DNA of 64,000 nucleotides from Cardiobacterium valvarum (GTDB taxonomy: Bacteria; Pseudomonadota; Gammaproteobacteria; Cardiobacteriales; Cardiobacteriaceae), in contig NZ_UFUW01000001.1 in assembly GCF_900460955.1 (NCBI RefSeq), positions 1,362,738 through 1,426,737 on the forward strand, given 5' to 3'. Positions 23,372 through 57,151 of this stretch are shown here, one piece after another; within the stretch, counting starts at the first letter, position 1, and each line of letters begins with the position of its first letter. A program made the position numbers and the translations under genes. The notes under the pieces are model-generated. The model searched no databases, was not told where the DNA came from, and saw only the letters and a list, made by a program, of their open reading frames with translations.

Positions 23372-23515
23372 GGTGCTATACTCGAACTCACAGTTGGCGA
23401 ACTGAAAACGCAAAGAGCCGGCGCGAACGCACAGCACCCACGGGTGTCAAACTCGTCTGTAACCCGGCAACGTCATCCTCGCGATGGCGTGACGACCCAA
23501 TCCGGCAGCCATGCT
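23372..23515 (+). promoter_or_regulatory. R header element copy 1 with extended -10 promoter
   Basis: TGCTATACT (extended -10, TATACT at 23377-23382) starts a ~105-nt structured element. It has the conserved blocks GTTGGCGAAC, GAGCCGGCGCGA, AAACTCGTCTGT and CCGGCAACG. Variable hairpin 1 is CACCC/GGGTG and hairpin 2 is CGTCATC/GATGGCG (one G-U). A separate CGGCAGC/GCTGCCG hairpin follows. Six further copies occur in the window. Confidence 0.7.
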
Positions 23516-23528
23516 GCCGTCATCATTC

Positions 23529-32747: not shown

Positions 32748-33374
32748 ATGGGGAATAAAATATTCATTTCATATAAGTATGCAGATGATAGCGTAAAGCA
32801 ATTGCCCAGCGCTAGTTATCATGCGCCTACTACGGCGCGGCATTATGTCAACATCATTCAGCAAAAACTAGAACGAGACGGCACCCACATCAACAAGGGT
32901 GAGCTGGATAATGAAGATCTTAGCGAATTTCGTGATGATACTATTCGCTCCCATCTAGCCAGGAAAATTTTTGACAGCTCGGTGACGATTGTTCTCATGT
33001 CACCCAATATGCGGGAGTTCCATGTTCCAGAAAGGGATCAATGGATCCCATGGGAAATTTCTTATTCATTACGTCTCAAGCGTGCTGGGGATAACAGAAG
33101 TAATCGTAACGGCATATTATTGATTTACCTTCCGGATCTATTTGGGCAATACAATTATAACGATGGAAGATATCAAGCCGAATTTACAATTATCCGTAGG
33201 AATCAAGATAATATTAAACCATTCAAAAATGATCCATTATTAAGGCTTCCGGCATCATATTTTATAAGTTGTACATGGGATCAGTTCTTGTCGCAAAGGC
33301 ATTTCTGGATTGCCAATGCCGACCGGCAGCGACATTTTGCTGAACGTTACGATATTACCATACAGGTAGATTGA
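32748..33374 (+). CDS. TIR-like (MTH538/ThsB-like) protein
   Basis: 208 aa. KIFISYKYADDSVKQL, HINKGELDNEDLSEF, SVTIVLMSPNMREFHV and DQWIPWEISYSL are in the order of the MTH538 TIR-like domain (Thoeris ThsB-type TIR). ThsB-type proteins make NAD-derived signalling nucleotides that activate a separate effector. Here the other genes in the operon (a TIR and a membrane protein) would be the receptor/effector, which is inference. AGGATTATAAA precedes the ATG. Confidence 0.8.
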   Translation: MGNKIFISYKYADDSVKQLPSASYHAPTTARHYVNIIQQKLERDGTHINKGELDNEDLSEFRDDTIRSHLARKIFDSSVTIVLMSPNMREFHVPERDQWIPWEISYSLRLKRAGDNRSNRNGILLIYLPDLFGQYNYNDGRYQAEFTIIRRNQDNIKPFKNDPLLRLPASYFISCTWDQFLSQRHFWIANADRQRHFAERYDITIQVD

Positions 33375-38179: not shown

Positions 38180-38515
38180 TCAGACGGCGACCAATTCTTG
38201 CAACAACATGCTCATCGTCTCGACCACCGTTTGGTCCGCCTTTTCGACGAACTCAATATTACGTTCACGGTAATCTAATGATTTGAGCTGGATGGAAATG
38301 GCCACGCCACGAATGATGTCGCCATCAATGGCCACCTCGGCATTGTTGCCGCGAATGGTGGAGGTTATCGGGCATACCAATACGAAGCCGGTCAGTCGTG
38401 ATAGCAGCTGGTCGCTGACTACCAACGCCGGGCGGCGTTTCTGGATTTCACGTCCCATGGCTGGGTCAAAATCAATGTAGATGATGTCGCCTCTGGCGGG
38501 AATGTAGCGGCTCAT
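38180..38515 (-). CDS. mazF: MazF/PemK-type mRNA interferase toxin
   Basis: 111 aa. RYIPARGDIIYIDFDPAMGRE, KRRPALVVSDQLLSRLTG and VCPITSTIRG followed by IQLKSLDYRERN are the MazF/PemK family landmarks. Such toxins cleave mRNA at short sequences. The start at 38515 overlaps the antitoxin stop. The frame opens upstream to 38551 inside the antitoxin gene and is discarded. Confidence 0.9.
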   Translation of the reverse strand: MSRYIPARGDIIYIDFDPAMGREIQKRRPALVVSDQLLSRLTGFVLVCPITSTIRGNNAEVAIDGDIIRGVAISIQLKSLDYRERNIEFVEKADQTVVETMSMLLQELVAV

Positions 38516-38775
38516 AGCAGCTCCCTCCCGACGGGGCGCATGTCCATCCACTCGCGATCTTCTTCGGTCTGGAAGGTATCGGGTGTAACCCCTTTAAGAA
38601 TTTCTTCCAGCCTCAGACGTTTGACCTTGGCCCTGGACGGACTCAGGACTATCGCGCCGTCTTGCAGGGCAACATCGAAATGATCACCGATGCCGACACC
38701 GAGCTGTTCTAGCAGGGCTTTCGGCAGGGCAACGATGTTGGCATTGCCGCTCTTGCGGATGGTGATGGATGGCAT
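38512..38775 (-). CDS. mazE: AbrB/MazE-type antitoxin
   Basis: 87 aa from Met at 38775 (ITIRKSGNANIVALPKALLEQLG, the SpoVT-AbrB swapped-hairpin DNA-binding domain). The C-terminal half would wrap the toxin. CCGGAG lies before this ATG. An in-frame upstream ATG at 38829, placed exactly behind an L leader, would add an 18-residue extension, so two starts may be used. Overlaps mazF by 4 nt. Confidence 0.88.
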   Translation of the reverse strand: MPSITIRKSGNANIVALPKALLEQLGVGIGDHFDVALQDGAIVLSPSRAKVKRLRLEEILKGVTPDTFQTEEDREWMDMRPVGRELL

Positions 38776-38829
38776 GGTAATCTCCGGCTCAGTTTTACCG
38801 AAGTATAACCCATGGATGAAGAAATTCAT

Positions 38830-38888
38830 GGTGTTCTCCTAAAAAAACAGGAGAACGACCCGGTACAGGGGCGTTCCCCTGCGGGTTG
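38830..38888 (-). promoter_or_regulatory. L leader of the mazEF unit
   Basis: Nearly identical to the leader at 38075: A CAGGGG/CCCCTG; B AGGGGAACG/CGTTCTCCT then GTTTTTTT; C GTTCTCCT/AGGAGAAC. It points at an ATG 54 nt upstream of the conserved antitoxin start. Confidence 0.8.
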
Positions 38889-38927
38889 GGTGATGCTGCC
38901 GGGTGGTGGCAGCGCGGGTAGAGTTGG

Positions 38928-39056
38928 GTCGTCACGCCATCGCGAGGATGACGTTGCCGGGTTACAGACGAGTTTGACACCCGCGTACGGGTGCTGTGCG
39001 ATCGCGCCGGCTCTGTTGCGTTTAGAGTTCGCCAACTACTAGGGGCGAGTATAGCA
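38928..39056 (-). promoter_or_regulatory. R header element copy 2 with extended -10 promoter
   Basis: TGCTATACT on the minus strand (TATACT at 39053-39048) precedes GTTGGCGAACT, GAGCCGGCGCGA, hairpin CACCCG/CGGGTG, AAACTCGTCTGT, CCGGCAACG and CGTCATC/GATGGCG. A CTGCC/GGCAG hairpin separates R from the leader at 38830. Confidence 0.7.
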
Positions 39057-41631: not shown

Positions 41632-42396
41632 CTAGGGATGCGAGGCATACACGCGCCAGTAGGCGGCGTTGCGTTCCTCTATGAGTGCCGGTGGGAAACG
41701 GCTTTGGCCCGTCAGAACCCAACAATAATCGCAAAGATCAAATTGTTTGTCATACAACTGACATTCGCGTTTATCCACCAGTACCACCAGCCGGCGGTAG
41801 CGTTGTTGTTGGGCTTCCGGCAGCATGGGAAGCTGCCAGCTGAAGATTTCTTCTTCATCCGGCCCAAACAGACGGTCCGGCTCGGGATCATCCGGCACCG
41901 GCAGCGTGCGAAGTTGCGCACGTATGCTGTCCAGCTCGCTTTGCATGGCCTGGAAAATCCGGTCATTCTTGAGCTGCACCCGGCAGAAGGCCGCAGCCAG
42001 CTGCTCCAGCCGGCGCTCGGGATAGTAGATTTCCCAGTCGGGAACATCGACCAAGAGGCTGATTTTTTCCATAAAATACCGGCTATTGCGACGTAATTGC
42101 GCACGCGCAGCCGGAGCCAAGTCATTCAGGAAGGTGACGGCCTCTTCTGACAACAGGACACGGTAGTCCGGCCCGGTCAGGCGCTCCAGCGCCTCATAAA
42201 AGGCGTAGAGCCATTCGCCGTCTGCGTTGGCATAGGACAAATAGGCGGAGGGGCGGGCCAAGAGCTTGCCCTTCCTCGCCTCAATGAGGCTCTCTAGCTC
42301 GTCTGAGGGCTTTTCTTCTACCAGCCGGCTAATGAGGTCGCCATCGATGGCGATGGTGGTTTTGAACGTAAAAGTGGGTTTGGGATAAGTGACCAT
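41632..42396 (-). CDS. hypothetical protein
   Basis: 254 aa, soluble, charged, helical C-terminal half. No domain recognised. Start at 42396 behind CAGGAGAAAAACC; the longer frame to 42447 runs through the leader. It is the first gene behind R3. Confidence 0.65.
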   Translation of the reverse strand: MVTYPKPTFTFKTTIAIDGDLISRLVEEKPSDELESLIEARKGKLLARPSAYLSYANADGEWLYAFYEALERLTGPDYRVLLSEEAVTFLNDLAPAARAQLRRNSRYFMEKISLLVDVPDWEIYYPERRLEQLAAAFCRVQLKNDRIFQAMQSELDSIRAQLRTLPVPDDPEPDRLFGPDEEEIFSWQLPMLPEAQQQRYRRLVVLVDKRECQLYDKQFDLCDYCWVLTGQSRFPPALIEERNAAYWRVYASHP

Positions 42397-42472
42397 GGTT
42401 TTTCTCCTGTAAAAAACAAAAAAGAAATACAGGAGAACGCGCCGCACAGGGGAACGTTGCCCCTGCGGGTTG
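42397..42472 (-). promoter_or_regulatory. L leader of 41632 gene
   Basis: A: CCGC plus CAGGGG with CCCCTG plus GCGG. B: AGGGG(c)AACG/CGTTCTCCT with T-rich tail. C: TTCTCCTGTA/TACAGGAGAA, 10 bp perfect. Confidence 0.85.
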
Positions 42473-42508
42473 GGTGATGCTGCCGGGTGGTGGCAGCGTG
42501 TAGAGTCA

Positions 42509-42635
42509 GGTCGTCACGCCATCACACGGATGACGTTGCCGGATCACAGACGAGTTTGACGTCACGGATGACGCTGTGCATTCGCGCCGGCTCTTTGCGT
42601 TTTGAGTTCGCCAACTGTTGAGTTTGAGTATAGCA
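42509..42635 (-). promoter_or_regulatory. R header element copy 3 with extended -10 promoter
   Basis: TGCTATACT (TATACT at 42632-42627), then GTTGGCGAACTC, GAGCCGGCGCGA, hairpin 1 CGTCA/TGACG, AAACTCGTCTGT, CCGGCAACG and hairpin 2 CGTCATC/GATGGCG. A CTGCC/GGCAG hairpin separates it from the leader at 42397. Confidence 0.7.
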
Positions 42636-42730: not shown

Positions 42731-43417
42731 TCAATTGCCGCAGAGCTTTTCACACGGAATACCATCCTTGTCCCCGTCGAGACGGCTGACCCCGCACTGA
42801 CGGTAGTAGTACTGCGCCTCGGCGCAAGAACGCATCTCGCCACAGTAACGCTTGCTGCCGCAACTACCGAAATCGGCGCCGACGGCCGCTTTTGCCTTGC
42901 CGCCCTTTTTCTGTTTCGCTTGCTGTACCTGCAGCTGTACTTCTTTTTGGCCTTTCCGCCATTGCGAGGGCTCAACAATTTGCGCCTCGGGTTGTCCCCA
43001 CAGACCCTTAGCCGCTGTCTTGGCTTCGTCCTGGATCGCCGGCAGGTCATCTCGCCGGTTGTATTGGCTGTAGACCCAGGCATGACCGGTTGCGACCAGA
43101 TCGGCGTTGACGTCGGTCCCGTCCACGGTAAGCGTGCAAACATCACGCTTGTAGCGGTCTTGTTCGCGGCAGTCGGCCACGACCTGCTTGCCAAAGGCCA
43201 GCTCGCTCAGGCGCTGCCGTGCCCGGTTGCCATAGGGCTGGCTTGATTCCGGCGCATCAATGTCGGCCAATCTTATTTTGTGCTGCTTTTTGCCGGCATC
43301 AAGCACGGTCAGGGTGTCGCCGTCGCTGATACCGACGACTTTCCCCTCAATAGTATAGGCCTGGGCGTCCGTGCTAACGGCCAGTGCTGCCGTCAGCAGC
43401 CAGCGTAATCCCTTCAT
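42731..43417 (-). CDS. secreted SNase-like nuclease with excalibur domain
   Basis: 228 aa. N-terminal signal-like segment (LRWLLTAALAVSTDAQA), then a staphylococcal-nuclease domain (GISDGDTLTVL, IRLADIDAPESSQPYG, GRxR-type Arg in the catalytic region, VATGHAWVY). After a Lys/Gln-rich linker the C-terminus is an excalibur Ca2+-binding motif (CAEAQYYYRQCG, LDGDKDGIPCE). It would degrade DNA or RNA in the periplasm or outside. Start behind GAGGAGGAGG. It has its own promoter (43506) and does not use an L leader. Confidence 0.88.
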   Translation of the reverse strand: MKGLRWLLTAALAVSTDAQAYTIEGKVVGISDGDTLTVLDAGKKQHKIRLADIDAPESSQPYGNRARQRLSELAFGKQVVADCREQDRYKRDVCTLTVDGTDVNADLVATGHAWVYSQYNRRDDLPAIQDEAKTAAKGLWGQPEAQIVEPSQWRKGQKEVQLQVQQAKQKKGGKAKAAVGADFGSCGSKRYCGEMRSCAEAQYYYRQCGVSRLDGDKDGIPCEKLCGN

Positions 43418-43446
43418 GTCCTCCTCCTCTGGATGATGGGTCATAA

Positions 43447-43511
43447 AAAACCGGCGCGAGCCGGCAAGACAAGGTAAAAGCCCGCCGATCGCGGCAGGTT
43501 GCGTCATTATA
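43447..43511 (-). promoter_or_regulatory. nuclease promoter and attenuator-like hairpin
   Basis: TATAAT (43511-43506, minus strand) is followed in the 5' UTR by a CCGGC/GCCGG hairpin and TTTTTT (43447-43462). No arm complementary to the Shine-Dalgarno is obvious, so this unit is unlike L. Confidence 0.6.
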
Positions 43512-43574: not shown

Positions 43575-43670
43575 CAAAAAAAAACCGGCTCTAAGGCCGG
43601 GAATGATGGAGGAGGAAACAGGTAGGAGGGACCTGTTCCGATGGAGGAGTTCATAGATACCGTTCATGGT
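43575..43670 (-). ncRNA. putative sRNA with three anti-Shine-Dalgarno motifs
   Basis: Transcript predicted from the TATACT at 43682-43677 to a CCGGC/GCCGG terminator with TTTTTTTTT. It carries CTCCTCCATC, a hairpin AACAGGT/ACCTGTT whose loop is CCCTCCT, and CCTCCTCCATC. Repeated C/U-rich anti-SD loops are known in trans-acting sRNAs of several proteobacteria. A short frame from the ATG at 43666 (42 codons) is possible, but no ribosome site precedes it. Confidence 0.5.
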
Positions 43671-43676
43671 TGCCCA

Positions 43677-43686
43677 AGTATAGCAC
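43677..43686 (-). promoter_or_regulatory. extended -10 promoter of the sRNA
   Basis: GTGCTATACT on the minus strand, identical in its core to the promoters of R1-R3. No good -35 box. Confidence 0.6.
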
Positions 43687-43795
43687 GGTGTCAGGTTAGG
43701 CCACACCGCCGGGCGGCGTGGCCGGGTTACCGTGCTGACAGATGCGGCAGACGATGACCAGGCAGAAAAAACCCGGCCGGAGCCGGGTCGTAGGG

Positions 43796-43981
43796 TTACA
43801 GCCAGTCGTCATCATCGCCAAACCAGGGACGGTGATGCGAGGGCTGATGGTGATACCAGCACACCAGGGCGCTGACACAGATGAGGGCAATGATCACGCG
43901 CAGGCTGAAGACGCTGGTAAGCGTCTGGGCCAGCAACTCGATGGCGAGGGCCGAGCAGAACATGGCAGGTACATGCTTCAT
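43796..43981 (-). CDS. 61-aa membrane protein
   Basis: One long or two short hydrophobic segments at residues ~5-45, then a His/Trp/Asp-rich tail ending DDDDWL. The start overlaps the stop of 43978-44553. Small coupled membrane protein of unknown role. Confidence 0.6.
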   Translation of the reverse strand: MKHVPAMFCSALAIELLAQTLTSVFSLRVIIALICVSALVCWYHHQPSHHRPWFGDDDDWL

Positions 43982-52878: not shown

Positions 52879-53535
52879 CTATCCACGTTTTGTACTGATA
52901 ACGGCTGGGCAATTTGAGCTACCGGAGGAAACGGGTGCCTCGCTCAAGGCGTTTGGTAGTTCCCCTGTTTCGGGACTTACCGGGAGATATAAATATTGGT
53001 ACACGGTTGCCCTGCTGATCCCGAAAAACTTGGCTAGTTGCACTTTTTTCTCACCCGCAGCTGCGCGTCGCCGTAAGTCTTCTACTTGCTCAACCGTGAG
53101 AGCTTTTTTCCGGCCTTTGTACGCACCTCGTTGCTTGGCCAGTGCTATGCCTTCACGCTGGCGCTCAAGAATTAGTGCACGCTCTAACTCGGCAAAGGCC
53201 CCCATAACAGAAAGAAGCAATTTTGCCATCGGTGAATCGTCTCCAACAAAAACCAATTGTTCTCTGTAGAACTCAACGCGGATGCCCTTCGAAGTAAGTC
53301 CATACACCAGCGCACGCAAATCATCCAGGTTTCGCGCTAAACGGTCCATGCTATGTACGATCAGGGTATCTCCTTCCCGGATGTAGGAAAGGAGTGCCTC
53401 AAGCTGTGGCCGCGCTCTGCTTTTGCCGGATGCTTTGTCTGTAAAAGTCCTGTCAAGATCAACTTTTTCTAACTGGCGCTCCGAATTTTGATCAAAGGTA
53501 CTGACCCTGATGTAGCCGATTCTTTGCCCTTGCAT
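52879..53535 (-). CDS. serine recombinase (Tn3-type resolvase/invertase)
   Basis: 218 aa. RIGYIRVSTFDQNSERQLE (catalytic Ser in RVSTFDQN), LIVHSMDRLARNLDDL (conserved Arg), and GAFAELERALILERQREGIA mark the catalytic domain and E helix; the C-terminal HTH is KKVQLAKFFGISRATVYQYL. The last ~30 residues are a Ser/Pro-rich extension beyond normal length. Start at 53535 (MQGQ) is preferred over a TTG three codons upstream. Upstream direct repeats look like its res site. Confidence 0.93.
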   Translation of the reverse strand: MQGQRIGYIRVSTFDQNSERQLEKVDLDRTFTDKASGKSRARPQLEALLSYIREGDTLIVHSMDRLARNLDDLRALVYGLTSKGIRVEFYREQLVFVGDDSPMAKLLLSVMGAFAELERALILERQREGIALAKQRGAYKGRKKALTVEQVEDLRRRAAAGEKKVQLAKFFGISRATVYQYLYLPVSPETGELPNALSEAPVSSGSSNCPAVISTKRG

Positions 53536-55173: not shown

Positions 55174-56070
55174 TTATTGGCTTCTGCTGCGCGGATGATA
55201 TTGCTGATGCAGGGTTTTGAGCTGCTGCTGCTCCAGTTGGGCGTAGATTTGTGTTGTGCTGATATTTGAGTGGCCAAGTAAAATTTGCACGACCCGCAGG
55301 TCGGCACCATTGGCCAGCATGTGTGAGGCAAAGGCGTGACGTAAGGTGTGGACTGTAAAACCATCATCCAGACAAGCCTGTTGCGCGTACTTCTTGATAA
55401 TACGCCATAGTGTGGAAATATCCATGACCTGTCCCGTCTTGGTTGAAGGGAAAAGGACATTTGAGCCTTGTTCATGGAACAAAAGCATACGGCGTTTCAG
55501 GTAACGGGTGAGCCAGTCCACCGTGGTTTCCAATAAAGGCACCAAGCGCTCTTTACGACGTTTGCGGATGATACGGATCGTCTTCTGTCGTAAATCAACG
55601 TCTGGCAAAGTCAACAAACGCAATTCGGTGTTACGTATCCCGGTATCGTAGAGCAATTGCATGATGGTGCGATCCCGCAAGCCGAGATCCGTTGACGTAT
55701 CCGGCATCGCCAATAAACGCTCTAACTCTGCGCAGGTGTAAAACCGGTGAATCCGGTCCGGATAGCCAGGATGGGAAATAAATTCAAAGGGATTATTGCT
55801 TTGCTCACCAAGCTGAACCCGATAGCGGAAATAGAATTTGACAGCAGTACAGGTTTTGCCAATGGCGGATTCGGTCAGGTTTTCTTCCCGAAAATATTGT
55901 TGTAAATGTCTTTCTTCTAATTCAGCCAAACTAAGTTGGTGAGATACCGCATATTCGAGAAATCGCTTGGTATAACGGATATGCCACGTCGTGGTTTGCT
56001 GGTCCTGGCCCACGATATCGGTCAGATATTCGGCGTAAGCATCTAACGCATCAGTTTCTTCTGTGGACAT
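55174..56070 (-). CDS. tyrosine recombinase (minus-strand member of pair)
   Basis: 298 aa. Catalytic residues: Arg in LLYDTGIRNTELRLLT, HTLRHAFASHML (His-x-x-Arg), LLGHSNISTTQIY (His/Tyr nucleophile). N-terminal SAM-like core-binding domain from residue ~5. Start at 56070 has CCGGAGTCATTA; an alternative Met is at 56088. Divergent from the recombinase at 56165. Confidence 0.92.
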   Translation of the reverse strand: MSTEETDALDAYAEYLTDIVGQDQQTTTWHIRYTKRFLEYAVSHQLSLAELEERHLQQYFREENLTESAIGKTCTAVKFYFRYRVQLGEQSNNPFEFISHPGYPDRIHRFYTCAELERLLAMPDTSTDLGLRDRTIMQLLYDTGIRNTELRLLTLPDVDLRQKTIRIIRKRRKERLVPLLETTVDWLTRYLKRRMLLFHEQGSNVLFPSTKTGQVMDISTLWRIIKKYAQQACLDDGFTVHTLRHAFASHMLANGADLRVVQILLGHSNISTTQIYAQLEQQQLKTLHQQYHPRSRSQ

Positions 56071-56164
56071 TAATGACTCCGGCACCATCAAAGGGATGCA
56101 AACACAGTTAAAAAACATCTAGTTATTAGCATGTTAGCACTTCTAACAACCAGTGGAGTGCAAC
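56071..56164. other. intergenic region between divergent recombinases, possible att core
   Basis: 94 nt with TAGTTATTAGCATGTTAGC followed by GTTAGCACTTCTAAC (GTTAG/CTAAC inverted repeat). Short inverted half-sites around a ~6-nt core are typical tyrosine recombinase binding sites. No other function seen. Confidence 0.4.
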
Positions 56165-57151
56165 ATGCAAAAGAAGTATCTAGAAAAAGGAACGCTGCGC
56201 CATTTTCGCGCAATTTACGAAGAGTATGCCGCCTATTTGAACTGCAAGAAACAACATCGGAACACTCTCTGCTGCAAAACCCGGGTGGTGCGGTATTTTC
56301 TGGGTTTTCTCGAATCGCACCAGAGCAGAACCCGTAATCTACGCAAATTACGGCTTGAGACCATACATGAATTCCTCTTTACTCTGCGAGATTTCGAAAC
56401 CAGCACCTATAACAATTACCTGATCTATTTGCGGCAATTTCTGACCTGGCTGGAACGCAACCACCAGATAGCTCCCATGAGCTGGTTGCTACACAGCAAA
56501 CCGGTAGAGGACAGTCTGCCACGCAATATCCCGCTTTTCCAGATGGAACAGATTTGCACCCCTGCAGAGCAGGAAGCTGATTTGCTGCCATCCCGCCTGG
56601 CCTTGCGGAATCAGGCCATCGTGGAAGTGCTGTTCAGCACCGGGGTGCGCAACAGCGAATTGCGCAATATTCGGGTGAGGCATCTCTCTGTAGACCTGAC
56701 AGAATGCACAATTGCCACGCTGAAAGGAGGGGTCAACCGTACTGTGTACCTCGGCGAAGCGGCCGTCAATGCCCTACAACGCTATTTACTGTGCGAAAAC
56801 GTTGACCGGCAAAAGGATGCCAACCGATATGTCTTCCTCAATTGCCACGGCCAAAGGATGAGTGCAAGAACACTTATCGCAATCGTCAAAGCCATGGGCA
56901 TCCAGCGTTGCGGCTGTCCGGTCACCCCGCACATGTTCCGCCATACTTTTGCGACGGAAATGCTGCGCGCTTGTCACAGTATCCGCTCGGTGCAGGTGAT
57001 GTTGGGTCACAAGAGCATCAATACAACCACCCGTTATTGTCACCTTGATTTTGATGAACAGATGAAAGCCGTGAGTGCGTTCCATCCGCATGCCATCAAG
57101 GCCCAGACCGACGGCACAGGGGAAGAGTCTGACAGCAAGCCCAATTCATGA
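56165..57151 (+). CDS. tyrosine recombinase (plus-strand member of pair)
   Basis: 328 aa. LFSTGVRNSELRNIRVRHL (Arg), TPHMFRHTFATEML (His-x-x-Arg), LGHKSINTTTRYCHLD (His, Tyr nucleophile). Start at 56165 behind GGAG; GTG at 56153 is an alternative. Two divergent tyrosine recombinases plus a serine recombinase in 4.3 kb form a recombination module. Confidence 0.92.
   Translation: MQKKYLEKGTLRHFRAIYEEYAAYLNCKKQHRNTLCCKTRVVRYFLGFLESHQSRTRNLRKLRLETIHEFLFTLRDFETSTYNNYLIYLRQFLTWLERNHQIAPMSWLLHSKPVEDSLPRNIPLFQMEQICTPAEQEADLLPSRLALRNQAIVEVLFSTGVRNSELRNIRVRHLSVDLTECTIATLKGGVNRTVYLGEAAVNALQRYLLCENVDRQKDANRYVFLNCHGQRMSARTLIAIVKAMGIQRCGCPVTPHMFRHTFATEMLRACHSIRSVQVMLGHKSINTTTRYCHLDFDEQMKAVSAFHPHAIKAQTDGTGEESDSKPNS

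Follow-up and report, generated by a model that had tools for sequence, protein, structure and literature searches.

The C/U-rich small RNAs (sRNAs) of anti-Shine-Dalgarno (anti-SD) type that we found in the open-licence literature are chromosomal regulators. The double-hairpin RNAs of Burkholderia (Rfam family RF02278), which include ncS03, ncS05, ncS27 and ncS62 of B. cenocepacia, contain unpaired, CU-rich stretches whose sequence is complementary to that of ribosome-binding sites; overexpression of ncS27 slows growth (PMC5688073). The Neisseria siblings NmsRA and NmsRB have UC-rich sequence in the SL2 loop as well as between their stem-loops, and it is through two anti-SD motifs that they act (PMC5362039). 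Bordetella S17S contains a C/U-rich region with two sites whose pairing would disrupt ribosome binding, ends in a 3'-end terminator and shows homology to toxic sRNAs (PMC11722255). In Xanthomonas, sX13 uses C-rich loops to pair with G-rich motifs close to the starts of translation (PMC3771888). PesA, an sRNA transcribed from the genomic island PAPI-1 of Pseudomonas aeruginosa, acts on a gene outside the island, over the ribosome-binding site of that gene (PMC5493400).

Here we analyse a locus that encodes a candidate C/U-rich anti-SD sRNA, located in a stretch of 64,000 nucleotides of the Cardiobacterium valvarum genome (hereafter the window). A preliminary description of this DNA had appealed to known trans-acting sRNAs that use C/U-rich loops against SD sequences; RF02278, NmsR, S17 and sX13 are indeed analogues of this kind.

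Results

The minus strand holds the whole layout of the locus (Table 1), in which TGCTATACT is followed by a unit of about 95 nt, 43671-43576, with the sequence AACCATGAACGGTATCTATGAACTCCTCCATCGGAACAGGTCCCTCCTACCTGTTTCCTCCTCCATCATTCCCGGCCTTAGAGCCGGTTTTTTTTT. Read 5' to 3', the order is the terminator of the preceding unit, TGCTATACT, the RNA start at about 43671, CUCCUCC, a hairpin, CCUCCUCC, the terminator stem and nine T. Its flanking genes are a small gene (43796-43981), whose end faces the unit, and a nuclease gene. The ~95-nt unit, the hairpin with a CCCTCCT loop, the closing hairpin and the nine T of the preliminary description all proved exact in sequence and fold. The predicted fold has an energy of -21.8 kcal/mol (z -2.4) and presents the C/U-rich motifs at exposed positions: CUCCUCC (positions 23-29 of the unit) is predicted to be 77-95% unpaired, the hairpin loop (positions 42-48) 100% and positions 59-64, which lie within CCUCCUCC, 98-99%. 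Four copies of CCTCC in the 90 nt ahead of a terminator occur in a single case in the window, and even at least three copies were seen in none of 200 dinucleotide shuffles of the window. The same layout, sought across about 0.6 Mb of scanned sequence, had no second site, and the unit is single copy in its own genome (2.76 Mb, two contigs).

Table 1. Features of the sRNA locus and of the related leaders (window coordinates).
Feature	Coordinates	Strand	Basis
Extended -10 promoter TGCTATACT, common to three DUF3577 RNA leaders	43677..43685	-	exact 9-mer match
Terminator of the preceding unit, cutting the sRNA gene off from upstream transcription	43770..43789	-	terminator prediction
Candidate C/U-rich anti-SD sRNA, ~95 nt	43576..43671	-	sequence, fold
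Anti-SD site 1, CUCCUCC, predicted single-stranded	43643..43649	-	sequence, fold
Hairpin 1, nine-pair stem; loop CCCUCCU (43624-43630) is anti-SD site 2	43615..43639	-	fold
Anti-SD site 3, CCUCCUCC; first one or two bases partly in the hairpin stem, remainder predicted single-stranded	43608..43615	-	
Intrinsic terminator CCGGC-CUUAGA-GCCGG (stem 43600-43585) plus nine U, G+C-rich	43576..43600	-	
Nuclease with SNase and Excalibur domains, next gene downstream of the sRNA unit	42731..43417	-	
Nuclease leader: TATAAT (43506-43511), hairpin (43481-43498), terminator-like hairpin (43450-43465)	43450..43511	-	
DUF3577 RNA leader (RF02954) with TGCTATACT promoter	42473..42635	-	
DUF3577 RNA leader with TGCTATACT promoter, ahead of a MazEF-like pair	38889..39056	-	
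DUF3577 RNA leader with TGCTATACT promoter	23374..23523	+	

The window looks like part of an integrative conjugative element (ICE). It encodes a TraU-like protein, a topoisomerase, an AcaB-like regulator, a DUF2958/SNF2 protein and a DUF6094 methyltransferase, together with DUF3275 and DUF3577 proteins, integrases and a resolvase. Two tyrosine integrases stand divergently, back to back, at 55174-57151, with the resolvase nearby (52879-53535), and a TIR-like protein with a Pfam match to ThsB of Thoeris is encoded at 32748-33374 (+). Seven DUF3577 RNA elements (RF02954) are spread over 23374-57394 of the window ahead of different genes, five of them above the family cut-off and two just below it (41.5-42.1 bits). 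RF02954 was not found above cut-off in the 368 other genomes of the class that were sampled; a match in G085 was spurious, and the 16 matches to a DUF3577-core pattern in the genome contigs were all attributable to chance. The RF02954 model gave no match at the sRNA unit. One of the DUF3577 leaders (42396-42635, -) contains an SD-sequestering hairpin, UUCUCCUGUA...UACAGGAGAA, ahead of an orphan gene; for the array protein at 41632-42396, neither plasmids nor the other 31 genomes searched from the order yielded a relative. Another leader precedes a MazEF-like toxin-antitoxin pair (38180-39056, -) with its SD in the hairpin GUUCUCCU...AGGAGAAC.

Exact copies of TGCTATACT occur four times in the window, at the sRNA unit and at the DUF3577 RNA leaders that begin at 23374 (+), 39056 (-) and 42635 (-), against 0.20 expected under a first-order Markov model, and zero times in 400 kb sampled from the remaining chromosome of the same genome. 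The promoter therefore belongs to the element and connects the sRNA with a part of the element's leader-RNA regulon. The identity of the promoter core with those of the array leaders, noted earlier, thus extends to an exact 9-mer at three of them. A sigma-70 scan of the sRNA promoter found no -35 partner, leaving the extended -10 alone; a missing -35 box fits an extended -10 promoter but counts against the sRNA gene. Since terminators lie both upstream of the sRNA unit and at its end, it would form a separate transcription unit, with its own terminator and, as read from the sequence, its own promoter, as expected of a trans-acting sRNA gene.

The sequence reported before the start of the adjacent nuclease gene is present, as the SD GAGGAGGAGG at 43429-43420, ahead of the ATG at 43417. 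The leader of this gene (43417-43511, -) has its own -10 box, a hairpin and a terminator-like hairpin right ahead of the SD; it may possibly serve attenuation or yield another short RNA, about 50 nt long.

In a permissive Rfam search the best neighbour of the sRNA was RF02278, but the match scored 18.9 bits where the family cut-off is 50 (E 0.19 in 401 bases). Membership was rejected on this covariance score, and the sRNA belongs to none of the tested families of anti-SD sRNAs. Of the 32 genomes searched from the order, 29 gave RF02278-like matches of about 28-36 bits; weaker matches carry no meaning, since control genomes also give matches at E up to 1. Twenty-nine of these 32 genomes (L080-L109) share a very conserved, chromosomally encoded C/U-rich double-hairpin sRNA, which lies in the present genome at C2:294901-294976 (L108:1488-1562). 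It lies below the RF02278 cut-off and is therefore not annotated at Rfam's gathering score. The 26 aligned genomes, including this one, have UCUCCUC(C/U)AUAUCCUCCUUUGGUGGUU(A/G)UU plus a terminator in common in the chromosomal RNA, and weaker matches to the model of this RNA were seen in 26 further genomes of the class.

Our own model of the host-lineage RNA, built from 26 genomes (R1), recovered this genome's chromosomal copy with 85.7 bits and, up to E 10, did not match the ICE unit. A second model (R2), made from the ICE unit only, detected no true relative in 40 relatives, 274 genomes of the class and about 270 kb of related ICE DNA; its matches in G007, G024 and G091 were rejected as the host double-hairpin RNA or as terminator or coding matches. 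Thus, the ICE RNA cannot be recognised as a copy of the host RNA, and the design that the two have in common could reflect either convergence or divergence beyond recognition. DNA homologues of the sRNA, sought in relatives and by BLAST in plasmids and phages, amounted to terminator matches or none. A pattern scan of viral contigs returned 62 stretches, all of low complexity and none arranged like the sRNA. Related loci sought through the neighbouring protein were not found, and the neighbourhoods of ten relatives of the DUF6094 methyltransferase held no such sRNA unit. With no homologue found, conservation is unusable as evidence for the sRNA.

The longest perfect match between the sRNA and a start region in the window is 9 bp and is reached by two genes, the nuclease (GGAGGAGGA, at the SD GAGGAGGAGG) and the TraU-like gene at 2376; among 355 chromosomal genes, a 9-bp perfect match is reached by one. 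By perfect-match length these two genes are the best target candidates inside the element. Interaction energies were computed by ensemble co-folding, with accessibility included, and the 260 genes with a recognisable SD were ranked. The nuclease gave -13.2 kcal/mol (rank 28; shuffled sRNAs average -11.6) and the TraU-like gene -14.5 kcal/mol (rank 19; shuffled sRNAs average -12.5), the single ranks being rough with gene starts taken from a naive caller. As a group, the element genes did no better than the chromosomal genes (median -7.2 vs -7.4). With such ranks, and with shuffled sRNAs nearly as good, the energy names no target. For both genes the perfect match falls in the longest class, but the energies lie close to those of shuffled sRNAs. 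In the co-folding, the nuclease SD is predicted to pair with the sRNA at 0.59, most SDs of the array leaders pair little or not at all, and two SDs held in hairpins pair at 0.00-0.01. Target prediction on the leaders, run as co-folding plus energy ranking, singled out no gene and does not support the GGAG sites of the array, which lie partly in leader hairpins, as targets.

Discussion

We conclude with reasonable, not full, confidence that the locus is an independent sRNA gene of the ICE, whose product is most likely a trans-acting anti-SD repressor and is probably assisted by Hfq. From its anatomy we infer the following course of action. The sRNA would be transcribed from an extended -10 promoter that is specific to the element and would also start several of its DUF3577 leader RNAs, and transcription would end at its own intrinsic terminator. 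The RNA would then expose three copies of the ribosomal anti-SD motif (CUCCUCC, CCCUCCU and CCUCCUCC); 16S rRNA itself is missing from the assembly. Pairing would take place in trans, probably with Hfq, which is encoded in the same genome (101 bits) and for which the U9 tail is available, and would be directed to strong GGAGG-type ribosome-binding sites. This would block 30S binding, as proposed by analogy with NmsR and the double-hairpin RNAs, and the most likely breadth of action is that of a broad anti-SD repressor with three sites. Of the preliminary description, the trans-acting anti-SD-type sRNA gene has good support from its anatomy, the shared element-specific promoter and its architectural analogues; the control of array genes is not supported. 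The three motifs are separately mutable and would permit a clean test of sRNA action.

Other readings put the same DNA to different use. The sRNA might be a dedicated local regulator that holds down the level of a DNA-degrading enzyme by covering the nuclease GAGGAGGAGG, in the manner of an RNA antitoxin beside its target. The two genes adjoin in the same orientation as separate units, and both the 9-bp match and the predicted SD pairing point this way. However, the energy rank and the performance of shuffled sRNAs argue against it, the match amounts to no more than a strong SD, and no such RNA lies upstream of the nearest relative of the nuclease (G006, same family, 60% identity); we consider a dedicated nuclease regulator unlikely. 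An attenuated leader of the nuclease mRNA, with part of the polymerase passing the terminator into the nuclease gene, would also agree with the common strand, the distance of about 160 nt and the further hairpins, including the terminator-like one, ahead of the nuclease SD. The nine T of the sRNA terminator, the second -10 (TATAAT) between the sRNA unit and the nuclease, and the lack of an obvious anti-terminator make such read-through improbable. Short protein coding has still less in its favour: a 42-codon ATG frame is open from 43667, its ATG about 5 nt past the inferred RNA start, and could be translated from a near-leaderless mRNA in which the C/U runs would simply encode Leu and Ser. Yet no SD precedes this frame, its product has no Pfam match, it reads across the terminator hairpin and the nine T, and the C/U motifs coincide with exposed positions of the predicted fold, all of which renders a protein gene very unlikely.

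Two further proposals concern the regulon into which the sRNA would fit. It had been suggested to control the DUF3577 array by opening or blocking GGAG sites. The promoter sequence common to sRNA and leaders favours this, as do the SD-sequestering hairpins, each with its own CUCCU arm, in the leaders of 41632-42396 and MazE. The sRNA has the same sense as that arm and would therefore compete with it for the SD, not free the SD; this and the negligible co-folding of the two hairpin leaders leave array control very unlikely. More speculatively, and in our view rather doubtfully, the element sRNA could imitate the conserved C/U-rich anti-SD sRNA of the host: fired with the DUF3577 leader regulon, it would either compete with the regulon of the host sRNA or add to it, so that strong-SD translation is lowered and hairpin-protected element genes escape. 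The predicted failure of the element's hairpin leaders to pair with the sRNA lends this slight support, as does a correlation of the predicted energies of the ICE and host RNAs across genes (r 0.53).

For the favoured reading, a broad trans-acting repressor, there are good grounds to hold that the sRNA would resemble the C/U-rich anti-SD sRNAs in its way of working. Its architecture is that of RF02278, with CUCCUCC as the C/U anti-SD stretch ahead of a hairpin with a C/U-rich loop, then a terminator hairpin, and it is likewise complementary to ribosome-binding sites. It differs in that its stem is unrelated in sequence, its hairpin and terminator have a third anti-SD site between them, it lies on an ICE, and it measures about 95 nt, whereas the short forms have 57-67 nt and ncS27 has 92 nt until it is processed (PMC5688073). 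The likeness to NmsRA and NmsRB is one of layout: a single-stranded UC-rich stretch between stem-loops and a UC-rich loop, both complementary to the SD, recur here, whereas the siblings form a tandem pair and are chromosomal. The short form of S17S is probably processed from a longer RNA and has 27 nt conserved across Betaproteobacteria, in contrast to the ICE RNA, for which no relative was found. sX13 has three stems with C-rich loops, targets with GGGG motifs, no need of Hfq and a chromosomal location. PesA differs in that it activates pyoS3A-I, and the text consulted on it showed no anti-SD design (PMC5493400). An ICE-borne anti-SD sRNA with three exposed sites and an element-specific promoter was not found described in the open-licence literature. 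If the favoured reading is true, an ICE with its own anti-SD sRNA on the promoter of its leader regulon would be a mobile element that reaches host translation in fewer than 100 nt; even if merely another broad repressor, the sRNA would extend the anti-SD class to conjugative elements. The C/U-rich anti-SD mode itself is known, and its carriage by a mobile element and its three-site form appear to be the unusual part.
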